From Natranaeroarchaeum aerophilus (lineage in GTDB: Archaea; Halobacteriota; Halobacteria; Halobacteriales; Natronoarchaeaceae): 64,000 nt of DNA. Numbering within the stretch: the stretch's first letter is position 1; the number at the start of each line of letters is the position of its first letter. The notes beneath the pieces are model-generated. The model had not been told where the DNA came from, searched no databases, and saw only the letters and a program-made list of their open reading frames with translations. The translations under genes were made by a program, and so were the position numbers. The stretch spans positions 62,001-126,000 of the forward strand of contig NZ_JAKRVY010000003.1 in assembly GCF_023638055.1 (NCBI RefSeq). Direction: 5' to 3'. Positions 17,633 to 38,771 of this stretch are shown in pieces.

Positions 17633-20600
17633 TAGTTGTTGCGGCGGCGGGCGAGGAGTGCTGCGCCGAGCAGGGAGACGAGGGCAACCAGCAGGCCGAA
17701 GCCGGGCTGGTCGTCATCGTCTTCAGGCTCGCCGTCATCGTCGCCGTTCTCCTCACCGTTCTCTTCTTCACCGTTCTCCTCACCGTTCTCTTCACCGTTC
17801 TCTTCGCCGTTCTCCTCACCGTTCTCATCGTGGTCCACGACAACCGTCAGCGTCGCGGAGTCGGATTCGTCGAGGAGCTCGACTTCGAGGTCGTGGTCGC
17901 CTTCAGGGAACTCGTCCTCGTTGGTTTCGAGCGTGAAGGTGGCATCGTCACTGTTGCCCGCGTCAGCGGTCACAGTGGCGGTGCCCTCTTCCTCACCGTT
18001 GAGGAACAGCGTGACTTCCTCGTCATCGAGGCCATCTGCGCCGGCGACGGCGGTGGCGTCGATGTCGACGGAGTCACCCTGATCGACTTCGTAGGTGTCC
18101 TGACCGAAGTCGATGGACAGCTCGAAGTCGTCTTCCTCGGCTTCGACGAGTGTGGAGTCGAGTTCGTGCTGGTTCTCGCCATCGTTGGCGTCAGTAGCGC
18201 GGAGCGTGAACTCGGTGCCACTGGATTCCTCGCTGAAGTCGTAGGTGGCGGTGAACGTACCGTCTTCTGCGACCTCAACGGTGGTGCGGTCGACGAACTC
18301 ACCGGGCGCGCGTGCTCGGGTGTCGACCTCAGTTCCGGGTGCGACGTTTGTCGTACCCGTCACATCTGCATTAGCAATGACCGGAACTTCGGACGCGCTC
18401 TCGTCCCACTCGATATCTCGCTCTTCCGAGGAGTAGGATGCAGAGGTGTCTTCCCAGTCATCGTAGAGCGGACTTGAGTCGGACATCTGTACGAAGACTT
18501 CGAAGTCAGACCCAACCGAAAGGTCTTCCTGCGGTTCGAGCAGGGCGATAAACTCACCATCGTCCTGATCAGCACTCACAATAGTCCCGACCAAGCCGCC
18601 GTCAAACCAAGTCCCGACTTCTTCTTGGTCGTCAACATTGAGTTCCTGTTCTGTACCTTCGATCCTCATCTGCATGTCGTTGATGATATGCTCATTATCA
18701 TCAATACCACCGACGTTAGCTCCCTCTTCGACGAAGCCGTAGACGCTCTCGGCTTCAACTTTTACGAGCAGCTCATCGTCTTCGGCCACGGTATCGGTCT
18801 CCGTGAGCGTGGCATCATCTAGATCGCCTTCATCGTCGATTGAGTCTGCTGGAGCAGTCATAATAGATGCCGGTGCATCCCAGATCTCTTGATGCTCAGT
18901 AATGCGGACGAACGTCGTGTCTAATTCGTCCTCAAGTTCTTCTTCATTAGCATCATACCCTTCCGCAATGCTCATTTCGTAGTCAGCTGGGTCAAGGAAT
19001 GGACCCTGCGGAAGTTCCACGATCTGATCGTGGACAGTCGCTTCAGCGTCGCTATCTTTGATGTCCCAGGCACCGGATTCAGAAGGCTCAGAATATGTGT
19101 TGAACGTAAGAACGACATCTTCGTCGTCTTCATGTTCCTCGAGATTGCTGATTTCGACGATCATCTCGAAGGCGACATCTTCCTCGTCGCCAAGCTGTAC
19201 ATAGAGGTTGTCGTCATAGTTGTCGACATCGATGTCGACATGTGCAACGTTCCCACTCTGAACTTCGTAATCTCCTTCGACGAAGTTCACTTCACCTTCT
19301 GTAGGTTCTACCACTTCGATCTCCGCAGCATCGGAGGCAGTCGAGTCAGCGACATCGGCAGTGAACTCGTAGTCGCCGAGATCACTATCGTCGTCAAACT
19401 CGGCGGGCATGACGTCACCTTCCTTCACGTCCTGGAAGGTTACTGTATTCTCGTCATCATTTTCGTCGTCAGCATCGAAGATGTCCGATAGCGTATCGGC
19501 CTCGATAGCATCACCGTCGTACTCGCCGCTGATGTGGAGATCAACGGCTTCCCCACGGTTATCTTCGGCAAACGATAGGTCAACAATCGAGCCCTGTTCG
19601 ACGGTTTCCGCGTCGAACTCTAGCTCGATATCCTGTTGCTCGACGAAGAACTCACCGTAGACTGCCTCCTCGTCAGTACCTGCCTGCAGGTAGTGGTAAC
19701 CCGAGAACTCGTCGGTTTCGAAGGTTACCGTTCCTTCGTGGTCGGTTTGCAGCGTGTCAACTCGCTCGGAATCACCGATGACCCCTTCGCGGAGCTGCAC
19801 GGGTTCACCAGGCTCGAAGCCACCGACTCGTGGCTCCTGTCCTTGCCATACGGTCCGATCATTGAGGACCGTCCGTGGGATTGCATCGTCCGGAACGTCG
19901 AGTGTCACCTGCGCTTGGTCGGTTACAGGCGTCGGGAAGTCTTCACCGGCCTGCAGAATGGGCGAACCGTACGGCTCCCCATCGAAGTGAAGCATCGCGA
20001 TGACGTCAGTATCTTCAGCAAGCGGGTCAATCTCTACCTCGACGCCGGATTCAGCACCATTCAGTGTCTCGGAGCTGCCGAGTACCGCTCGGTCTTCAGC
20101 AGCCTCGTGAATGACAATCTGGTAACCGTTTGCCGGATCGAGATTACTGGAGCTAACGGTCACAACATCTCCAGTGACTTCTTCGTTGTCAGCGTCCTCG
20201 ATTGACACAGCCGCATCGTAGACAGTCGCTGTGTCAGCGGTGACAATGTTATCCAGAGTATCCGAAGAGACGATACCAGTATCGGAAGTGTCACTACTCA
20301 ATTCATCAATGGCGTGAACTGTGTGTTCACCGGGTTCCCCTCCACGATCGTCAACCGGAATGTTGACGTACTGTTCTTCGTTCGCACCGTCAGCCGTACC
20401 TGCGACAACCGTATCGACGCCGTCCTCATACGTCAGTACAAGGGTGGCTTCGGCACTACCTGCCGTATTCACGTAGACCTCTTCATCATTCTCATTGAGC
20501 GCCTGATTGTCGAACTCAACGAAGGTCTCTGAGAGTGTAGCAGTATCTGTAATATCACTCAGCTCTCCGTCGCTGAGTTCCTGAATGACGTCTCCAGCAC

Positions 20601-32749: not shown

Positions 32750-35248
32750 TCACGCCCGTGCAAGCGATGCCGGGACGATCTCGCTGGACGAGATGCGATC
32801 CCAGACGACGATCGCGGAGGGCAACACGAGCACCGAGCTCAGCCACGCGTAGAAGACACCCAGTGCGAGCAACAGGCCAAACTCCATGATCAGCGGGATC
32901 AACGCCACGTAGAGGATGCCGAGCCCACTCACCGTCGTCAGCATGCTCCCGGTGAGCGCGCCACCGGTCCCGCGAACCGTCGTCCCGAGGGCGTCCTGCA
33001 CGCTTTTCCCGCCCTCGAACTCGTCGACAAAGCGGTGCATGAAGTGGACGGTGTAATCGACGCCGAGCCCGATCGACACCGAGAGGATCGGCGCGTTGAT
33101 CGGGGAGAGTGGGATATCGAACAGCCGCATCGATCCGGCCAGCAACGCCACGGCAAGCAACACCGGAACGAGATTGAGCACGCCGTAGACGGCGCGGCCT
33201 TCGAGCCACCAGTACGAGAGCACCAGAAAGACCATCGTGAGGACGAACGCGACGAGCAGGCTGTTCACCGACGCCTCTGTCGTTTCGTCGATGATCGACT
33301 CGAAGATGACGAGCTGGCCGGTCGCCGTCGCATCGAGACGCATATCTTCCGCGAGTGCGCGGGCCGCAGCCACCGCCTCGTCCTGTTCGGCATCGACGTC
33401 GACCTGCACGTCGACGATCGCGCCGGTGCGGTCGGTCGTCAGTCGATCCTGCGCACGGTCGCCCGCGGGCGAGTCGAACAGCTCATCGTACACCACGTCG
33501 ACATCCCGGTCCGGGATCCCGTCACCGGAGGAGTCGTACCGTTCGACGGTTCGGGCGAACTCGGGATCCGCCGCTTCGTGGGACTCGATCACGCCGAGGA
33601 TCGACTCGGCGTCAGCCTGCCGCCCATCCGCCTCGAAGGCCTCGTCGGGGTCATCGAGCGCGCGATCGATCTCCGTGAGGCCGCGATCCGACCGCAACTC
33701 ACTGTCGTCAATATAGATCGTCACCGACCCCTCGAACCCCTGCTCGAAGTCCTCTTCGAGATAGGTGAGCACCTGTATGAACGTGTACTCGCCCGGCTGG
33801 AGCGGTCCGGGCAGCGACTCGTACTGCTCGATCCGATCCTCGTCGGGGAAGAAGGCCTCCTCGTCGAACTCGGTATCGACGCCGGTCCCGTACGCCGTTG
33901 CCCCGACACCGAGTGCCAGCACTGCGACGAGAAAGATCACCGGCGCGACTTTCGAGATCGACACACCGACGGTGAGCACTCGCCCCAGCGCGGAGTCTTC
34001 GTTTCCGAGCGGGCTCGTTCCGAACTCGGGGAATCGCGTTCCCTCGCGAAGCGTGTCAAAGCCCACCTTCCCGGCGGGGAGGAAGATCCCGAAGATGAGA
34101 AACGTGAAGATGATCCCGGCAGTACCGACGATCCCGAAGTCCCGGGTGACATCGCTGATGAGGTTCGCCATCAGGCTGAACACGGTCGTCAGCGTGACGA
34201 TCAGGAGCGCAATGAGAAGCTGCTGGGTGGTAATCCGCATCGACTCCGTGATCTGTTTACCAAGCTCCCGTTCCTCCCGATAGCGATTGATGATGTGGAT
34301 GCCAAAGTCGATCCCGACGGCGAGCAACAGCGCGAAGACGGTGATCAGTTGATCCGAAAAGGGGATGTCGGCGAGCGTCATGAAGCCGAACGTCCAGATA
34401 AACGTCAGAACGAGGGAGACGAGCCCCAGCATGAGATCGATCGGATCCCGGTACGCAACCGCCAGGAAGAAGATGATCAGGACGACCGCGGCGGGGAAGA
34501 CGACGATCGCCGTGTCACCGAGCAGCTGGAGCGTCTCCTCTTCGATGATCGCATCGCCGAAGACGACGACGTTCTCGCCAGTCTCGTAGCCGTCAATATC
34601 GTTTGCGATCTCCTGGGTCTGGAACTGAAGGTCGGCCGTATCACTCGTCTCCGCGTTCGGCGGCGTATCGTACGTGATCGCCACCTGCGCCACTGACGCC
34701 GATCCCGACTCCGGTTTGAAGTCCGTGCTAACGGGCAGTCCAGCGGTCTCGTCGGCGTCCGCGATCGCCTGCTCGAGCTGGCGCTGTGGCGTGCGCTCGA
34801 TCGTCCGATACTGCTCTTCGGCTGTCGTCGCCTCGGGATCGATCTGTTCTGCGACAAGCGAGGCCGGACTCGTCGAGGACTCGACGCGCAACCGGTCTTC
34901 CGTCTCGATACGATCCTGGAACGTCAACATCCGCAACAGCGATTGTTTCGACAGGACGTTCCGATCATCTTCCACGAACAGCTGTGCGGTTGTCCCCCCG
35001 GTGTCCCGTCCCTCGTCCCGGAACTCCTCCTGGATCTCGTCGAAGGCCTCCTGTGCGTCGGACCCCTCGGTGAACTGATCGGCACCGGCCTCTTCTTCGC
35101 CATCACTGAGGGCGATCGCTCCCAGGAAGCCGGCGGTAATCACGAGGAACACGAAGACGACTGTCCACGGCCGGGCGGTGATCGCCGTATTCACCCACCG
35201 TGTGAGACGATTGTCCTCCTCGGGTCCGTCAGTGGCTGCGTCACTCAT
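32750..35248 (-). CDS. RND superfamily (MMPL-type) exporter
   Basis: 832 aa, two repeated halves, each with one TM helix, a large external domain and five or six TM helices. Seen: TM1 at about 20-45 (WTVVFVFLVITAGFLGAIAL), the RND motif AVGIDFGIHIINRYREE in half one and SIGLGVDYTVHFMHRFVDEF in half two. This is the haloarchaeal/MmpL-like group exporting lipids or hydrophobic compounds. ATG 35248 overlaps the stop of the COG1361 gene (ATGA), so the two form an operon controlled from the divergent TetR promoter. Confidence 0.9.
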   Translation of the reverse strand: MSDAATDGPEEDNRLTRWVNTAITARPWTVVFVFLVITAGFLGAIALSDGEEEAGADQFTEGSDAQEAFDEIQEEFRDEGRDTGGTTAQLFVEDDRNVLSKQSLLRMLTFQDRIETEDRLRVESSTSPASLVAEQIDPEATTAEEQYRTIERTPQRQLEQAIADADETAGLPVSTDFKPESGSASVAQVAITYDTPPNAETSDTADLQFQTQEIANDIDGYETGENVVVFGDAIIEEETLQLLGDTAIVVFPAAVVLIIFFLAVAYRDPIDLMLGLVSLVLTFIWTFGFMTLADIPFSDQLITVFALLLAVGIDFGIHIINRYREERELGKQITESMRITTQQLLIALLIVTLTTVFSLMANLISDVTRDFGIVGTAGIIFTFLIFGIFLPAGKVGFDTLREGTRFPEFGTSPLGNEDSALGRVLTVGVSISKVAPVIFLVAVLALGVGATAYGTGVDTEFDEEAFFPDEDRIEQYESLPGPLQPGEYTFIQVLTYLEEDFEQGFEGSVTIYIDDSELRSDRGLTEIDRALDDPDEAFEADGRQADAESILGVIESHEAADPEFARTVERYDSSGDGIPDRDVDVVYDELFDSPAGDRAQDRLTTDRTGAIVDVQVDVDAEQDEAVAAARALAEDMRLDATATGQLVIFESIIDETTEASVNSLLVAFVLTMVFLVLSYWWLEGRAVYGVLNLVPVLLAVALLAGSMRLFDIPLSPINAPILSVSIGLGVDYTVHFMHRFVDEFEGGKSVQDALGTTVRGTGGALTGSMLTTVSGLGILYVALIPLIMEFGLLLALGVFYAWLSSVLVLPSAIVVWDRISSSEIVPASLARA

Positions 35249-36879
35249 TCGCTGGTTGCTCGCCGTCGCCACCACAGTCCAGCGATGCCGATGGCAGCAA
35301 CGACACCGCCGAGCGGGAACAGCAGACTGAGCAGCCCACCGTCGTCATCGTCTACCCCCTCTTCGACATCGACAGGCAACTGATACGTGTCGGAGATTTC
35401 AGTATCACCGCGCTCGGTATCGTACTGGAAATCGAGTTCGACCGGATACGTCTGGACCGTGGCGTCGTCCGCCGCGGCCACATCGAATCGGATCTCGGCG
35501 GATTCATCCGGAGCAAGCGAGGGGACGAACGCCTCGTCGTCCTCACTTGCCAGTGGACTATCCGTGTACAGGGCAGCATCGATGTTCGAGAGCGTCTCGG
35601 GGCGCTGGTTCGTGATCTCGACGATCAGGTCGGCAGTTTCACCCTGTCGCACTGTCGTCTCGACGCCATCCAGCGAGAACTCGTCGGTTCGGGGATCGAC
35701 CACGACACGCTGGGAGATCGGGCCATCCTGTGCGGTCGATCGGTCCCCGGAGCCGTATTCGACTGTGAACTGCAATTGGCGCGGTCCTTCATCGGCCTGC
35801 CCGCTCACATCGGTCGGATATCTGAACGACGTCGTCTCTCCGGCGTCCAGTTCTGGCAGTGCGTACCGCGTATCCTCGATGAACAGCGACTCGCTCTGGG
35901 GCTCGGCGATCAGTACTGCGTCGTCAACGCTCCGTGGCCCCTCGTTCGTAATCTCGCCGGTAACCTCGCCGTCGTAGCCGACCGACAGCGTATCCTCCAG
36001 GTTATCGATAGCGAACCGCTGTTCGGCTGCCGGAGCGAGACTGGCCGTTTCGGTCCCGGCCTGTCGTTCGATCCCGGCGTCATCTCGATAGCTGAGGTCG
36101 AGCTGGATGGGCTTTGCACCCTCACTCGTCGTCTGCGGGATCTCCACGTCAACCGTCACCGATGCCGAATCGTTCGCGTCGAGATCGCCGAGGAGTTCCT
36201 CGGCGGTGCCGCCGTCAACGACGACGCCGCCGCCACCGCTGATCGTTGCCTGCGTCGCGTTTGCGGCCTGGGCACCGACGTTTTCGACAGTGAGTGTTGC
36301 TGGGCCATCCCCACCAGGCTGGACATCCGTGTCAACAGCAGAGATAGCAAACCGTGGCTCGTCGGGAACGACGATCGTGAGAGTGAACCGATCACTGTCG
36401 GTCCTGTCCCAGCGCGATCCGGTGTTGTCCGACACCTGCCACGTGTAGGCATAGTCGGCTTCGACAGTGATCTCGTACTCACCCGGGTCGAGATCCTCGG
36501 GCGCTTCGATGCGCTGTGTCGCGCTGATGCTCTGGCCCTCGGGTAACGAACCCACTGAGGACTGGCCCGACTTCACGTCAAACGGCCCCTCATCAACGAC
36601 CTCGACGGAGAGGCCACGAGCGGTTGTCACGCGCTCGCTCTGGGTGCCAGTATCAAGTTCGCCCTGATTCTGTAGCTGTATCTCGATGGATTCCTCGGTG
36701 CCAGCGTTGAGCTCCGGCTCGGGCAGGAAGGCGTCGAGGTCGGGCTCGCCCCGCGTCAGCTCGCCGGACGACGAACCGAACTCGTCCTCCTGAGCGAGGA
36801 CGACCGGCACGGTAAGGGCAGCGGCCAGAATGAGAACCAGCGCGGCGACCACGACGACGAGTCGCTGACCCTCTGTCAC
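35245..36879 (-). CDS. COG1361/CARDB-type exported protein, RND partner
   Basis: About 544 aa. N-terminal TM/signal LVVVVAALVLILAAALTVPV, then three or four Ig-like COG1361/CARDB repeats (PATLTVENVGAQAANAT; EVTGEITNEGPRSVDDAVL; ADLIVEITNQRPETLSN), then an acidic spacer and a C-terminal anchor LLFPLGGVVAAIGIAGLWWR. Proteins like this commonly accompany archaeal MmpL-type exporters as extracellular subunits. The GTG at 36879 overlaps the stop of a 22-codon upstream ORF (GTGA); a GTG at 36888 is also in frame. Coupled to the RND gene by ATGA. Confidence 0.82.
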   Translation of the reverse strand: MTEGQRLVVVVAALVLILAAALTVPVVLAQEDEFGSSSGELTRGEPDLDAFLPEPELNAGTEESIEIQLQNQGELDTGTQSERVTTARGLSVEVVDEGPFDVKSGQSSVGSLPEGQSISATQRIEAPEDLDPGEYEITVEADYAYTWQVSDNTGSRWDRTDSDRFTLTIVVPDEPRFAISAVDTDVQPGGDGPATLTVENVGAQAANATQATISGGGGVVVDGGTAEELLGDLDANDSASVTVDVEIPQTTSEGAKPIQLDLSYRDDAGIERQAGTETASLAPAAEQRFAIDNLEDTLSVGYDGEVTGEITNEGPRSVDDAVLIAEPQSESLFIEDTRYALPELDAGETTSFRYPTDVSGQADEGPRQLQFTVEYGSGDRSTAQDGPISQRVVVDPRTDEFSLDGVETTVRQGETADLIVEITNQRPETLSNIDAALYTDSPLASEDDEAFVPSLAPDESAEIRFDVAAADDATVQTYPVELDFQYDTERGDTEISDTYQLPVDVEEGVDDDDGGLLSLLFPLGGVVAAIGIAGLWWRRRATSE

Positions 36880-36944
36880 TGCAACCACCTGCCGATTCGT
36901 CGATCAGCGTAACCCGTCGGGTCCGAACCCGCAGTATCGCTCAT
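36876..36944 (-). CDS. Possible leaderless 22-aa leader ORF before the COG1361 gene
   Basis: ATG 36944 opens a 22-codon frame (MSDTAGSDPTGYADRRIGRW and two more residues) whose TGA overlaps the GTG at 36879. The TATA-like GCTTAAG lies about 25 nt upstream, which puts the transcript start at this ATG. It could therefore be translated first, delivering ribosomes to the main gene. No family known, and expression is inferred. Confidence 0.45.
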   Translation of the reverse strand: MSDTAGSDPTGYADRRIGRWLQ

Positions 36945-36963
36945 ACCCACCTGTTTGATACCT

Positions 36964-37008
36964 GAGTCTTAAGCATTGTGATTGAACGTTCAATCACATT
37001 GTTTATCG
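36964..37008. promoter_or_regulatory. Divergent promoter with a 22-bp perfect palindrome (TetR operator)
   Basis: TGTGATTGAAC followed directly by GTTCAATCACA (36977-36998) is a perfect palindrome. On its left lies the minus-strand TATA (CTTAAG, about 36966-36973), on its right the plus-strand TATA (GTTTATC, 37001-37007). A TetR dimer bound here would block both promoters, giving autoregulation plus control of the exporter. Confidence 0.8.
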
Positions 37009-37030
37009 CCCCCGGCATCGAACTGGGAGT

Positions 37031-37117
37031 ATGCAACACCGGGGAGACACCTGCCGAGATGTCGGTTGTGCATCTAGCGAGAGAGAGCCAGCACCGACCC
37101 AGAGTAAACGACCGTGA
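37031..37117 (+). CDS. Possible leaderless 28-aa leader ORF before the TetR gene
   Basis: ATG 37031 lies about 26 nt after the GTTTATC box and opens 28 codons (MQHRGDTCRDVGCASSEREP, then eight more). Its TGA (37115-37117) overlaps the GTG start of the TetR gene (37114). It mirrors the 22-aa ORF on the other side of the operator. Function unknown; two Cys are present. Translation is inferred from position only. Confidence 0.45.
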   Translation: MQHRGDTCRDVGCASSEREPAPTQSKRP

Positions 37118-37722
37118 CCATGTCTGAAGACCCGTTTGCGGACACGGAAACGACCCAGGAAGAGATCCTTGCGGCAACCTACAGAGCACTGTGTACCGAG
37201 GGCTATGCCGATATCACCATCAAATCGATCGGTGAGCAGTTCGAGAAGAGTCCATCACTCATCTACCGCCACTACGAGGGAAAAGACGACCTCGTGCGTA
37301 GCTGTCTGGAGTATCTACTGGAGGGCTTCGAGAGTCAACATACCAGTGGAGAATTCGAAAAGCCCAGAGAGGAACTCGATGAGTTCGTCACGTCCATGAC
37401 TGCAACCGACCTTGACGACGAAGAGCGCCAGTTCATGGCGACACTCGTCGCCCTCCGGGCACGGGGTGTTACCGACGAGGAGTACCGACAGCTGTTCACA
37501 CGTAGTGATGCGATCCTGAAATCGCATCTCGTGTCGATTATCGAGTCGGGAATCGACACGGGCGAGTTCCAGCAGTGCACTCCCGAAAGCGTCGCCGAAA
37601 CACTCCTTGCTATTCTCTCGGGGGTCTCGACCAGACAGGCCACATCTATGTCCGATGAGTGGGTCACCGGTGTCCGCTCGGAGGTCAACGAGTACCTGAA
37701 ACTGCGTGTCTACGCCGAGTGA
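37114..37722 (+). CDS. TetR/AcrR family transcriptional regulator
   Basis: 202 aa. The N-terminal HTH is TQEEILAATYRALCTEGYAD, ITIKSIGEQFEKSPSLIYRH, YEGKDDLVRSCLEYLLEGF. The C-terminal ligand-binding region matches the haloarchaeal TetR group. It is divergent from the RND/COG1361 operon with a perfect palindrome between, so it is the likely repressor of that exporter, relieved by an exported compound. Start: GTG 37114 (overlapping the mini-ORF stop) or ATG 37120. Confidence 0.9.
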   Translation: MTMSEDPFADTETTQEEILAATYRALCTEGYADITIKSIGEQFEKSPSLIYRHYEGKDDLVRSCLEYLLEGFESQHTSGEFEKPREELDEFVTSMTATDLDDEERQFMATLVALRARGVTDEEYRQLFTRSDAILKSHLVSIIESGIDTGEFQQCTPESVAETLLAILSGVSTRQATSMSDEWVTGVRSEVNEYLKLRVYAE

Positions 37723-37896: not shown

Positions 37897-38343
37897 TCAC
37901 TCCAGTACACCGCGCTCCGACAGGTGCGTCCGCACCGCGATCAAAAAGTCCCGATACCGTTCGAGATCACCCAGCGCTTCGTATACTTCCTCGTGATTGA
38001 TGGCACCACCATAGGTATGAGCGAGTACGTTCCGGAATCGTGCTGCTTCCGCCATCTTTTGGGTCGTCGTCTCATCGATGATATCCGCGTCCCCAAGCAC
38101 AATCATAGCGGCTGGATTGCTCTTCGGGCGCTCGTCACGTTCGTCAACGGCCAGTGTTTTTGCGATGTCGAGTGCGGCTTCAGTCAACTTGACAAACCGC
38201 CGTTCAACGACGTCACGGGTTTCCGGATCGCTCCGGTAATCGGCAGCGGAAAGTGCCTGTTTGTCCGCCAGTACTGCAAGACTCGCTTCCATCGTTTCGA
38301 CGGCAGTGACGATCCGCTCAATATCGCTCTCCGAGAGGCTCAT
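37897..38343 (-). CDS. hepT: HepT-like HEPN-domain toxin/ribonuclease
   Basis: 148-aa all-helical HEPN protein. The catalytic RX4HXY motif is R104-N-V-L-A-H109-T-Y111 in ARFRNVLAHTYG. It overlaps the MntA-like gene by 4 bp. In the MntA-HepT (type VII) system the nucleotidyltransferase antitoxin AMPylates the Tyr of this motif and silences the RNase; both key sites are present here. The symbol reflects the clear pair. Confidence 0.87.
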   Translation of the reverse strand: MSLSESDIERIVTAVETMEASLAVLADKQALSAADYRSDPETRDVVERRFVKLTEAALDIAKTLAVDERDERPKSNPAAMIVLGDADIIDETTTQKMAEAARFRNVLAHTYGGAINHEEVYEALGDLERYRDFLIAVRTHLSERGVLE

Positions 38344-38771
38344 GCCAGATGGTCCTCGATCGCCGCGAGGGCATCGTCGAACCGTTCAGTAGGCGATCGC
38401 TGACGGCCACGGTCCTGGCCAGCGTCGCGGAGCTCCTCACGAAGCTCCCTGGCCGCTTGTTCGGACCCAGCGATGCGATCTCCGTTTTGGAATACTGCAC
38501 GAACCAGCGTCGGTGACGCCGATCGGAGGTCAACAATATCGATATCATCGGTGCCGAGGGCGAGGGCAAGATCGACACCAAGCGCGAGTCGCGCACGTCG
38601 CTGATTGGCCTCGGTTTCCTCGAAGGCCACTGCCACATCGATATCGCTTCCCGTGCTGGCCTCGTTGCGAGCCCGTGAACCGAAGATAAATCCGACTGCC
38701 ACTGGGTGGTCAGTGAGGACGGACGCAACTGTCTCATAAACCCCCTCGTCATCGACGTCCGTGGTCATCAT
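38340..38771 (-). CDS. mntA: MntA-like nucleotidyltransferase antitoxin
   Basis: 143 aa. The minimal nucleotidyltransferase motif GSX10DXD is complete: GSRARNEASTGSDIDVAV (Ser32, Asp43, Asp45), with the third Asp in DDIDIVDL. First gene of the pair and coupled to hepT by ATGA. A TATA-like TTTATACTATAC lies about 26 nt before the tandem ATGATG start, suggesting a leaderless mRNA. It should AMPylate and neutralise HepT. Confidence 0.87.
   Translation of the reverse strand: MMTTDVDDEGVYETVASVLTDHPVAVGFIFGSRARNEASTGSDIDVAVAFEETEANQRRARLALGVDLALALGTDDIDIVDLRSASPTLVRAVFQNGDRIAGSEQAARELREELRDAGQDRGRQRSPTERFDDALAAIEDHLA

Follow-up and report, generated by a model that had tools for sequence, protein, structure and literature searches.

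Divergent loci that pair a TetR repressor with an RND-MMPL exporter are organized around a palindromic operator between two divergent promoters, with the exporter as the target of the repressor. The locus described here has a TetR_N domain and a palindromic site between divergent genes, as such TetR exporter loci do, but it differs from them in that the divergent partner encodes a COG1361-type protein, the promoters are archaeal and a putative fore-cistron opens both arms.

In mycobacteria, leaderless ‘coupled’ small ORFs end in an RTGA stop/start overlap and have been suggested to enhance translation of the gene that follows (Shell et al. 2015, PMC4633059). The present locus shares with them a short unannotated ORF and the RTGA overlap, and a leaderless start is predicted here as well. 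However, the mycobacterial system is bacterial and its conserved uORF examples keep significant amino-acid identity (PMC4633059), whereas the present mini-ORFs preserve their frame but not their peptide, and do so on both sides of a single divergent operator and in most sampled genera of an archaeal order. Given that leaderless coupled mini-ORFs are known from mycobacteria, we regard the present case as a new archaeal variant.

Overlapping gene pairs of Haloferax volcanii have the same short overlaps and SD motifs within the upstream ORF, and the downstream gene depends strictly on that ORF (PMC6728339, PMC10666635). These pairs are normal operon genes, many of them for subunits of one complex, whereas the upstream ORF studied here is without a conserved product. 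Short uORFs (15–31 aa) ahead of normal genes have also been reported from this haloarchaeon, in a survey that covered only 5′-UTRs of 150–250 nt, of which 16 of 97 had one (PMC4983044). The leaders of the window, at 65 and 83 nt, fall below that range and would have been missed; the uORF section of that study read the peptides as acidic real proteins, and coupling lay outside its scope. The leaderless bicistronic design of Corynebacterium glutamicum, which is engineered and bacterial, likewise joins a leaderless promoter to a fore-cistron, and there strong expression of the downstream gene requires both translation of the fore-cistron and its SD motif (PMC10367133). A 2025 review lists ribosome delivery among the possible functions of a short upstream ORF (PMC12548453). 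In the literature searched, with subscription papers largely outside it, we found no report of the present locus or of conserved peptide-independent archaeal fore-cistrons.

Layout of the divergent locus

Within the window, by which we mean the whole 64-kb stretch of haloarchaeal-type DNA analysed, covering positions 62001-126000 of contig C3, a TetR gene (plus strand) and a COG1361 gene (minus strand) diverge from a 245-bp region at 36876-37120 (Table 1). A sequence-only reading of the window had described a perfect 22-bp palindrome between two TATA boxes, and this is confirmed: it is the only perfect palindrome of at least 22 bp in the window, and the TATA-like boxes that flank it both end 25 nt before the ATG of the respective mini-ORF. 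For comparison with the scores in Table 1, 2.7% of random sites score above 4 with the same PWM. No second match to the 18-bp core of the palindrome was found in the same genome with up to 3 mismatches allowed. The second-longest palindrome in the window is perfect over 20 bp (19221-19240, TGTCGACATCGATGTCGACA).

Table 1 Positions of the features of the divergent locus in the window
Feature	Position	Strand	Details
Perfect 22-bp palindrome, proposed TetR operator	36977..36998	.	TGTGATTGAACGTTCAATCACA; between both promoters
TATA-like box TTTAT, TetR-side promoter	37002..37006	+	PWM score 6.1
TATA-like box CTTAAG, COG1361-side promoter	36968..36973	-	PWM score 4.4; TTAA at 36972-36969
Mini-ORF, 28 codons, proposed leaderless fore-cistron of the TetR gene	37031..37117	+	ATG start; stop overlap conserved
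Mini-ORF, 22 codons, proposed leaderless fore-cistron of the COG1361-MMPL operon	36876..36944	-	ATG start; stop overlap conserved
AGGTGG, SD-like motif within the end of the minus mini-ORF	36885..36890	-	5 nt before GTG 36879
TetR-family repressor	37114..37722	+	PF00440 TetR_N, PF13977 TetR_C_6; start GTG 37114 or ATG 37120
COG1361-type secreted protein	35245..36879	-	NPCBM_assoc/CARDB repeats, signal peptide, C-terminal TM helix; start GTG 36879
MMPL/RND exporter (HAE3-type)	32750..35248	-	Adjoins the COG1361 gene downstream

The two mini-ORF ATGs, at 37031 (+) and 36944 (-), are both exactly 43.5 nt from the palindrome centre. The TGA of the plus mini-ORF overlaps GTG 37114 of TetR and the TGA of the minus mini-ORF overlaps GTG 36879 of COG1361, giving an RTGA overlap of stop and downstream start at a distance of -4 nt on both arms. 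The earlier reading had claimed ORFs of 22 and 28 codons with exactly these overlaps, and its coordinates and codon counts are correct. The TetR start is ambiguous in the window, as an in-frame ATG follows 6 nt after the GTG, and the TetR side shows no clear SD-like motif there. On the minus strand, successive overlaps link the mini-ORF to COG1361 and COG1361 to MMPL; at the second of these (COG1361/MMPL junction, 35245-35275), the COG1361 TGA and the exporter ATG at 35248 share a 4-nt ATGA.

Beside the TetR gene, window positions 37897-38771 (-) encode a HepT-like ribonuclease (PF01934) and a Pol-beta-type nucleotidyltransferase (PF18765), the HepT-like gene being directly downstream of the nucleotidyltransferase gene with a 4-nt overlap; this pair is a HepT/MntA-type toxin-antitoxin.

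Start and stop positions across haloarchaeal loci

That the double overlap is unlikely by chance, as had been claimed from the window, does not hold well for a single sequence, given that shuffled leaders in which ATG, frame and RTGA were kept still gave the exact overlap in approximately 24% (TetR side) and 41% (COG side) of cases. A single genome is hence only suggestive, and it is conservation across loci that carries the strength of the claim. We sampled 47 haloarchaeal loci, including the window, with TetR and a divergent COG1361 gene, from 18 genera and five families. TetR orthologues were gathered by genome search, and loci below 40% TetR identity, without a COG1361 neighbour, were left out; a TetR scan of genome contigs gave remote bacterial matches only. 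Main starts were set independently of the mini-ORF, by homology for TetR and, for COG1361, from the hydrophobic core of its signal peptide.

Close copies of the palindrome, mostly with 0–4 differences from TTTGATTGAACGTTCAATCAAA, stand ahead of most of the 47 loci, and in three (L042, L045 and L047) only half of the operator site is recognizable. This conservation of the site at orthologous loci suggests that the palindrome is the binding site through which TetR represses both genes. An ATG lies 43–46 nt from the operator centre in 42/47 loci on the TetR side and in 46/47 on the COG1361 side, with no comparable ATG peak elsewhere downstream of the TATA box in these loci. Among loci in which the main gene lies further downstream of the conserved ATG, to which the stop-position counts were restricted, the mini-ORF stops within -8 to +12 nt of the main start in 33/36 (TetR) and 42/45 (COG1361). 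The exact 4-nt RTGA overlap is the commonest class (13/36 and 34/45, respectively), and the remaining leaders mostly have 8- or 11-nt overlaps or gaps of 2–4 nt. Apart from the 11-nt class, these distances lie within the range of about -8 to +10 nt of termination-reinitiation pairs (PMC10666635). SD-like 5-mers precede the main start in 18/36 leaders on the TetR side and 21/45 on the COG1361 side, compared with 1.3 in control windows. Neither arrangement, mini-ORF or leaderless, is clean on the TetR side of 5/47 loci (L033, L036, L037, L051 and L054), and three COG-side leaders (L037, L069 and L109) are without the overlap.

Frame-keeping dinucleotide shuffles were judged too lenient, and the main control was therefore the third frame, read in the same sequences. 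Here, only 8/36 (TetR) and 0/45 (COG1361) stops fall in the interval (p = 2e-9 and 3e-22), although p-values per locus overstate independence because loci of one genus are related. Genus-level counts are safer and give 12/15 and 16/18, with 0 and 0 in the third frame. Indels in multiples of three between mini-ORFs were not counted, given that the length of any ORF is a multiple of three by definition. In GC-rich DNA the ORF of a promoter-proximal ATG may often end near the next start by chance, and shuffles that keep frame and RTGA do place the stop in the interval in about half of the leaders (18.7/36 and 24.4/45). Nevertheless, the observed counts exceed this conservative null by approximately 6 standard deviations each, the third frame falls far below them and the ATG position is itself fixed, which leaves chance barely credible.

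The sequence-only reading had named conservation of both mini-ORFs in relatives as its check, and unconserved frames as what would speak against it. Start position and stop overlap are kept on both arms in most sampled genera, which disposes of that objection, and the translational coupling that it had suggested is well supported by the conserved mini-ORF start and its overlap with the main start.

A TATA box precedes the mini-ORF ATG by about 25 nt in 31/33 (TetR) and 38/42 (COG1361) leaders, counts that are partly circular as the PWM was built from the same promoters; free of this circularity, a TATA-like site precedes the main start in 0/33 and 2/42. The TATA spacing points to a transcription start at or near the mini-ORF ATG. 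Nine loci have a leaderless TetR gene without a TetR-side mini-ORF, and in 8/9 of them this gene starts 43–48 nt from the operator centre, a matching distance that supports the predicted transcription start. Hence, transcription starting inside the mini-ORFs is unlikely, given that TATA-like sites are nearly absent ahead of main starts and that leaderless TetR mostly starts at the same operator distance. The TetR tree contains at least three changes between the leaderless and mini-ORF states, and the leaderless TetR of L032 is nested within a mini-ORF clade on supported branches. In five loci of one genus (L068, L072, L074, L080 and L097), TetR is leaderless with its start 43 nt from the operator centre, and the COG1361-side mini-ORF has 56–67 codons, ending GGER with GTGA.

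Frame, peptide and RNA structure of the leaders

Across loci the mini-ORFs keep their frame but not their peptide, for which no selection is detectable. In close pairs, substitutions at codon positions 1/2/3 number 32/41/25 in TetR-side mini-ORFs and 37/33/46 in COG-side mini-ORFs, and 15/11/83 in the TetR genes of the same pairs; the COG1361 genes were excluded as a contrast, the comparison being ungapped and one pair having only 66% identity. GC content differs little between the three codon positions of the mini-ORFs (TetR side, 0.69/0.63/0.67; COG side, 0.63/0.66/0.66), with no GC3 periodicity in the tested leaders of either side, and is 0.60/0.42/0.80 in TetR and 0.77/0.50/0.76 in COG1361 genes. 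The window and its sister species (L004) agree in mini-ORF length (28 and 22 codons) and in having a GTGA overlap on each arm, and their peptides match at 13/29 TetR-side positions, counting the stop, and at few COG-side ones. The mini-ORF peptides contain 14–17% arginine and are net positive; the main proteins are acidic.

It is very improbable, on this evidence, that the mini-ORFs are genes for small functional proteins. Their position is conserved, and haloarchaea have many small proteins (PMC4983044), but there is no purifying selection, no GC3 bias and no Pfam match for the peptides, the positive charge is at odds with the acidic main proteins, and length is free, ranging from 13 to 67 codons.

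Leader-peptide control, by attenuation or ribosome arrest, had been put forward alongside coupling. Here the mini-ORF peptide or its codons would sense a condition and alter expression of the main gene, and short ORFs that open regulated operons are indeed the classical form of leader peptides. In addition, COG-side mini-ORFs of one genus frequently have ...RW-x-P or GW-x-P at their end, although the stretch with the W is also where the AGGTGG SD-like motif lies. Close relatives do not share the peptides, however, and substitutions are spread evenly over codon positions. Leader RNA folding is also no better than that of shuffles, with mean z of 0.03 and -0.34 for 33 TetR-side and 42 COG-side leaders. 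The leaders thus have neither the conserved peptide or regulatory codons nor the stable alternative RNA structure of an attenuator or arrest peptide, and we consider this form of control improbable, as peptide selection is lacking and no RNA structure stands out.

Proposed route of translation and its possible wider use

We propose, with a probability of approximately 0.8, that the mini-ORFs are peptide-independent leaderless fore-cistrons whose 5′ AUG loads ribosomes, both main genes then being reached by termination-reinitiation. The position of the mini-ORFs is kept across many genera and their protein sequence is not, so that ribosome loading and hand-over is their likely job. The divergent promoter would be symmetric and under TetR control, each transcript beginning at, or a few bases from, an AUG that opens a short fore-cistron. 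A ribosome would bind this leaderless end, translate 22 or 28 codons of free sequence, terminate where the TGA overlaps the following start codon, then reinitiate on TetR (plus) or COG1361 (minus), from where the second overlap, ATGA, could pass it on to the MMPL exporter. The SD-like motif at the mini-ORF end, where present, may aid reinitiation, and a TetR dimer on the palindrome could shut both arms. Conservation of the frame lends indirect support to translation of the mini-ORFs.

What is known of Haloferax would fit this route. Leaderless transcripts make up 72% of the total in this genus (PMC4983044), initiation at 5′-UTRs does not rely on SD motifs (PMC3986360), and at short overlaps reinitiation is strict (PMC6728339), with an SD contribution that varies from gene to gene (PMC6728339, PMC10666635). 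The mini-ORFs may be kept because leaderless ends are good loading sites for haloarchaeal ribosomes, which have no SD-driven start inside a 5′-UTR. With the same device on both arms, repressor and exporter would be translated by one rule.

The 5′ AUG might instead be an inhibitory decoy that diverts ribosomes and keeps TetR and exporter low, with the overlap as a by-product. Main starts are GTG in 50/81 leaders, which fits low expression, and the present data are compatible with damping as well as with activation. A decoy would need no stop placed at the main start, however, and the common 4- and 8-nt overlaps and the SD-like motifs before main starts are features of coupled genes (PMC10666635), which makes the decoy distinctly unlikely.

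Fore-cistrons may also be used elsewhere in the genome. In 1.65 Mb of the same genome, analysed with a simple gene finder and excluding the present locus, coupling to the next gene is seen for 44/122 upstream ATGs with a TATA box, compared with 180/849 without one (p = 5e-4) and 18/122 in the third frame (p = 2e-4). The excess of approximately 18–26 genes, some of them ordinary small genes, corresponds to 2–3% of 907 leading genes. This suggests use of the same device by a few percent of leading genes, on weaker evidence than for the locus itself. Whether peptide-independent leaderless fore-cistrons are a standing initiation route in haloarchaea for genes with a leader, serving a few percent of the leading genes of this genome with frame rather than peptide under selection, is in our judgement an even call.

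If so, some genes would have a concrete answer in a conserved mini-ORF that serves ribosome loading alone, and SD motifs near main starts would become reinitiation signals. Annotation would wrongly treat such leaders as untranslated, and the overlap could be used to place main starts. The locus itself supplies matched relatives with and without a fore-cistron.

For two of three further genome-wide candidates, no similar DNA was found in the sister species. One further case is a 23-codon mini-ORF with GAGGTGG and ATGA ahead of a TFX-type regulator (C3:172406-172477 (-), L184), for which the sister species keeps the 23 codons, the SD-like motif and the ATGA, with a changed peptide.
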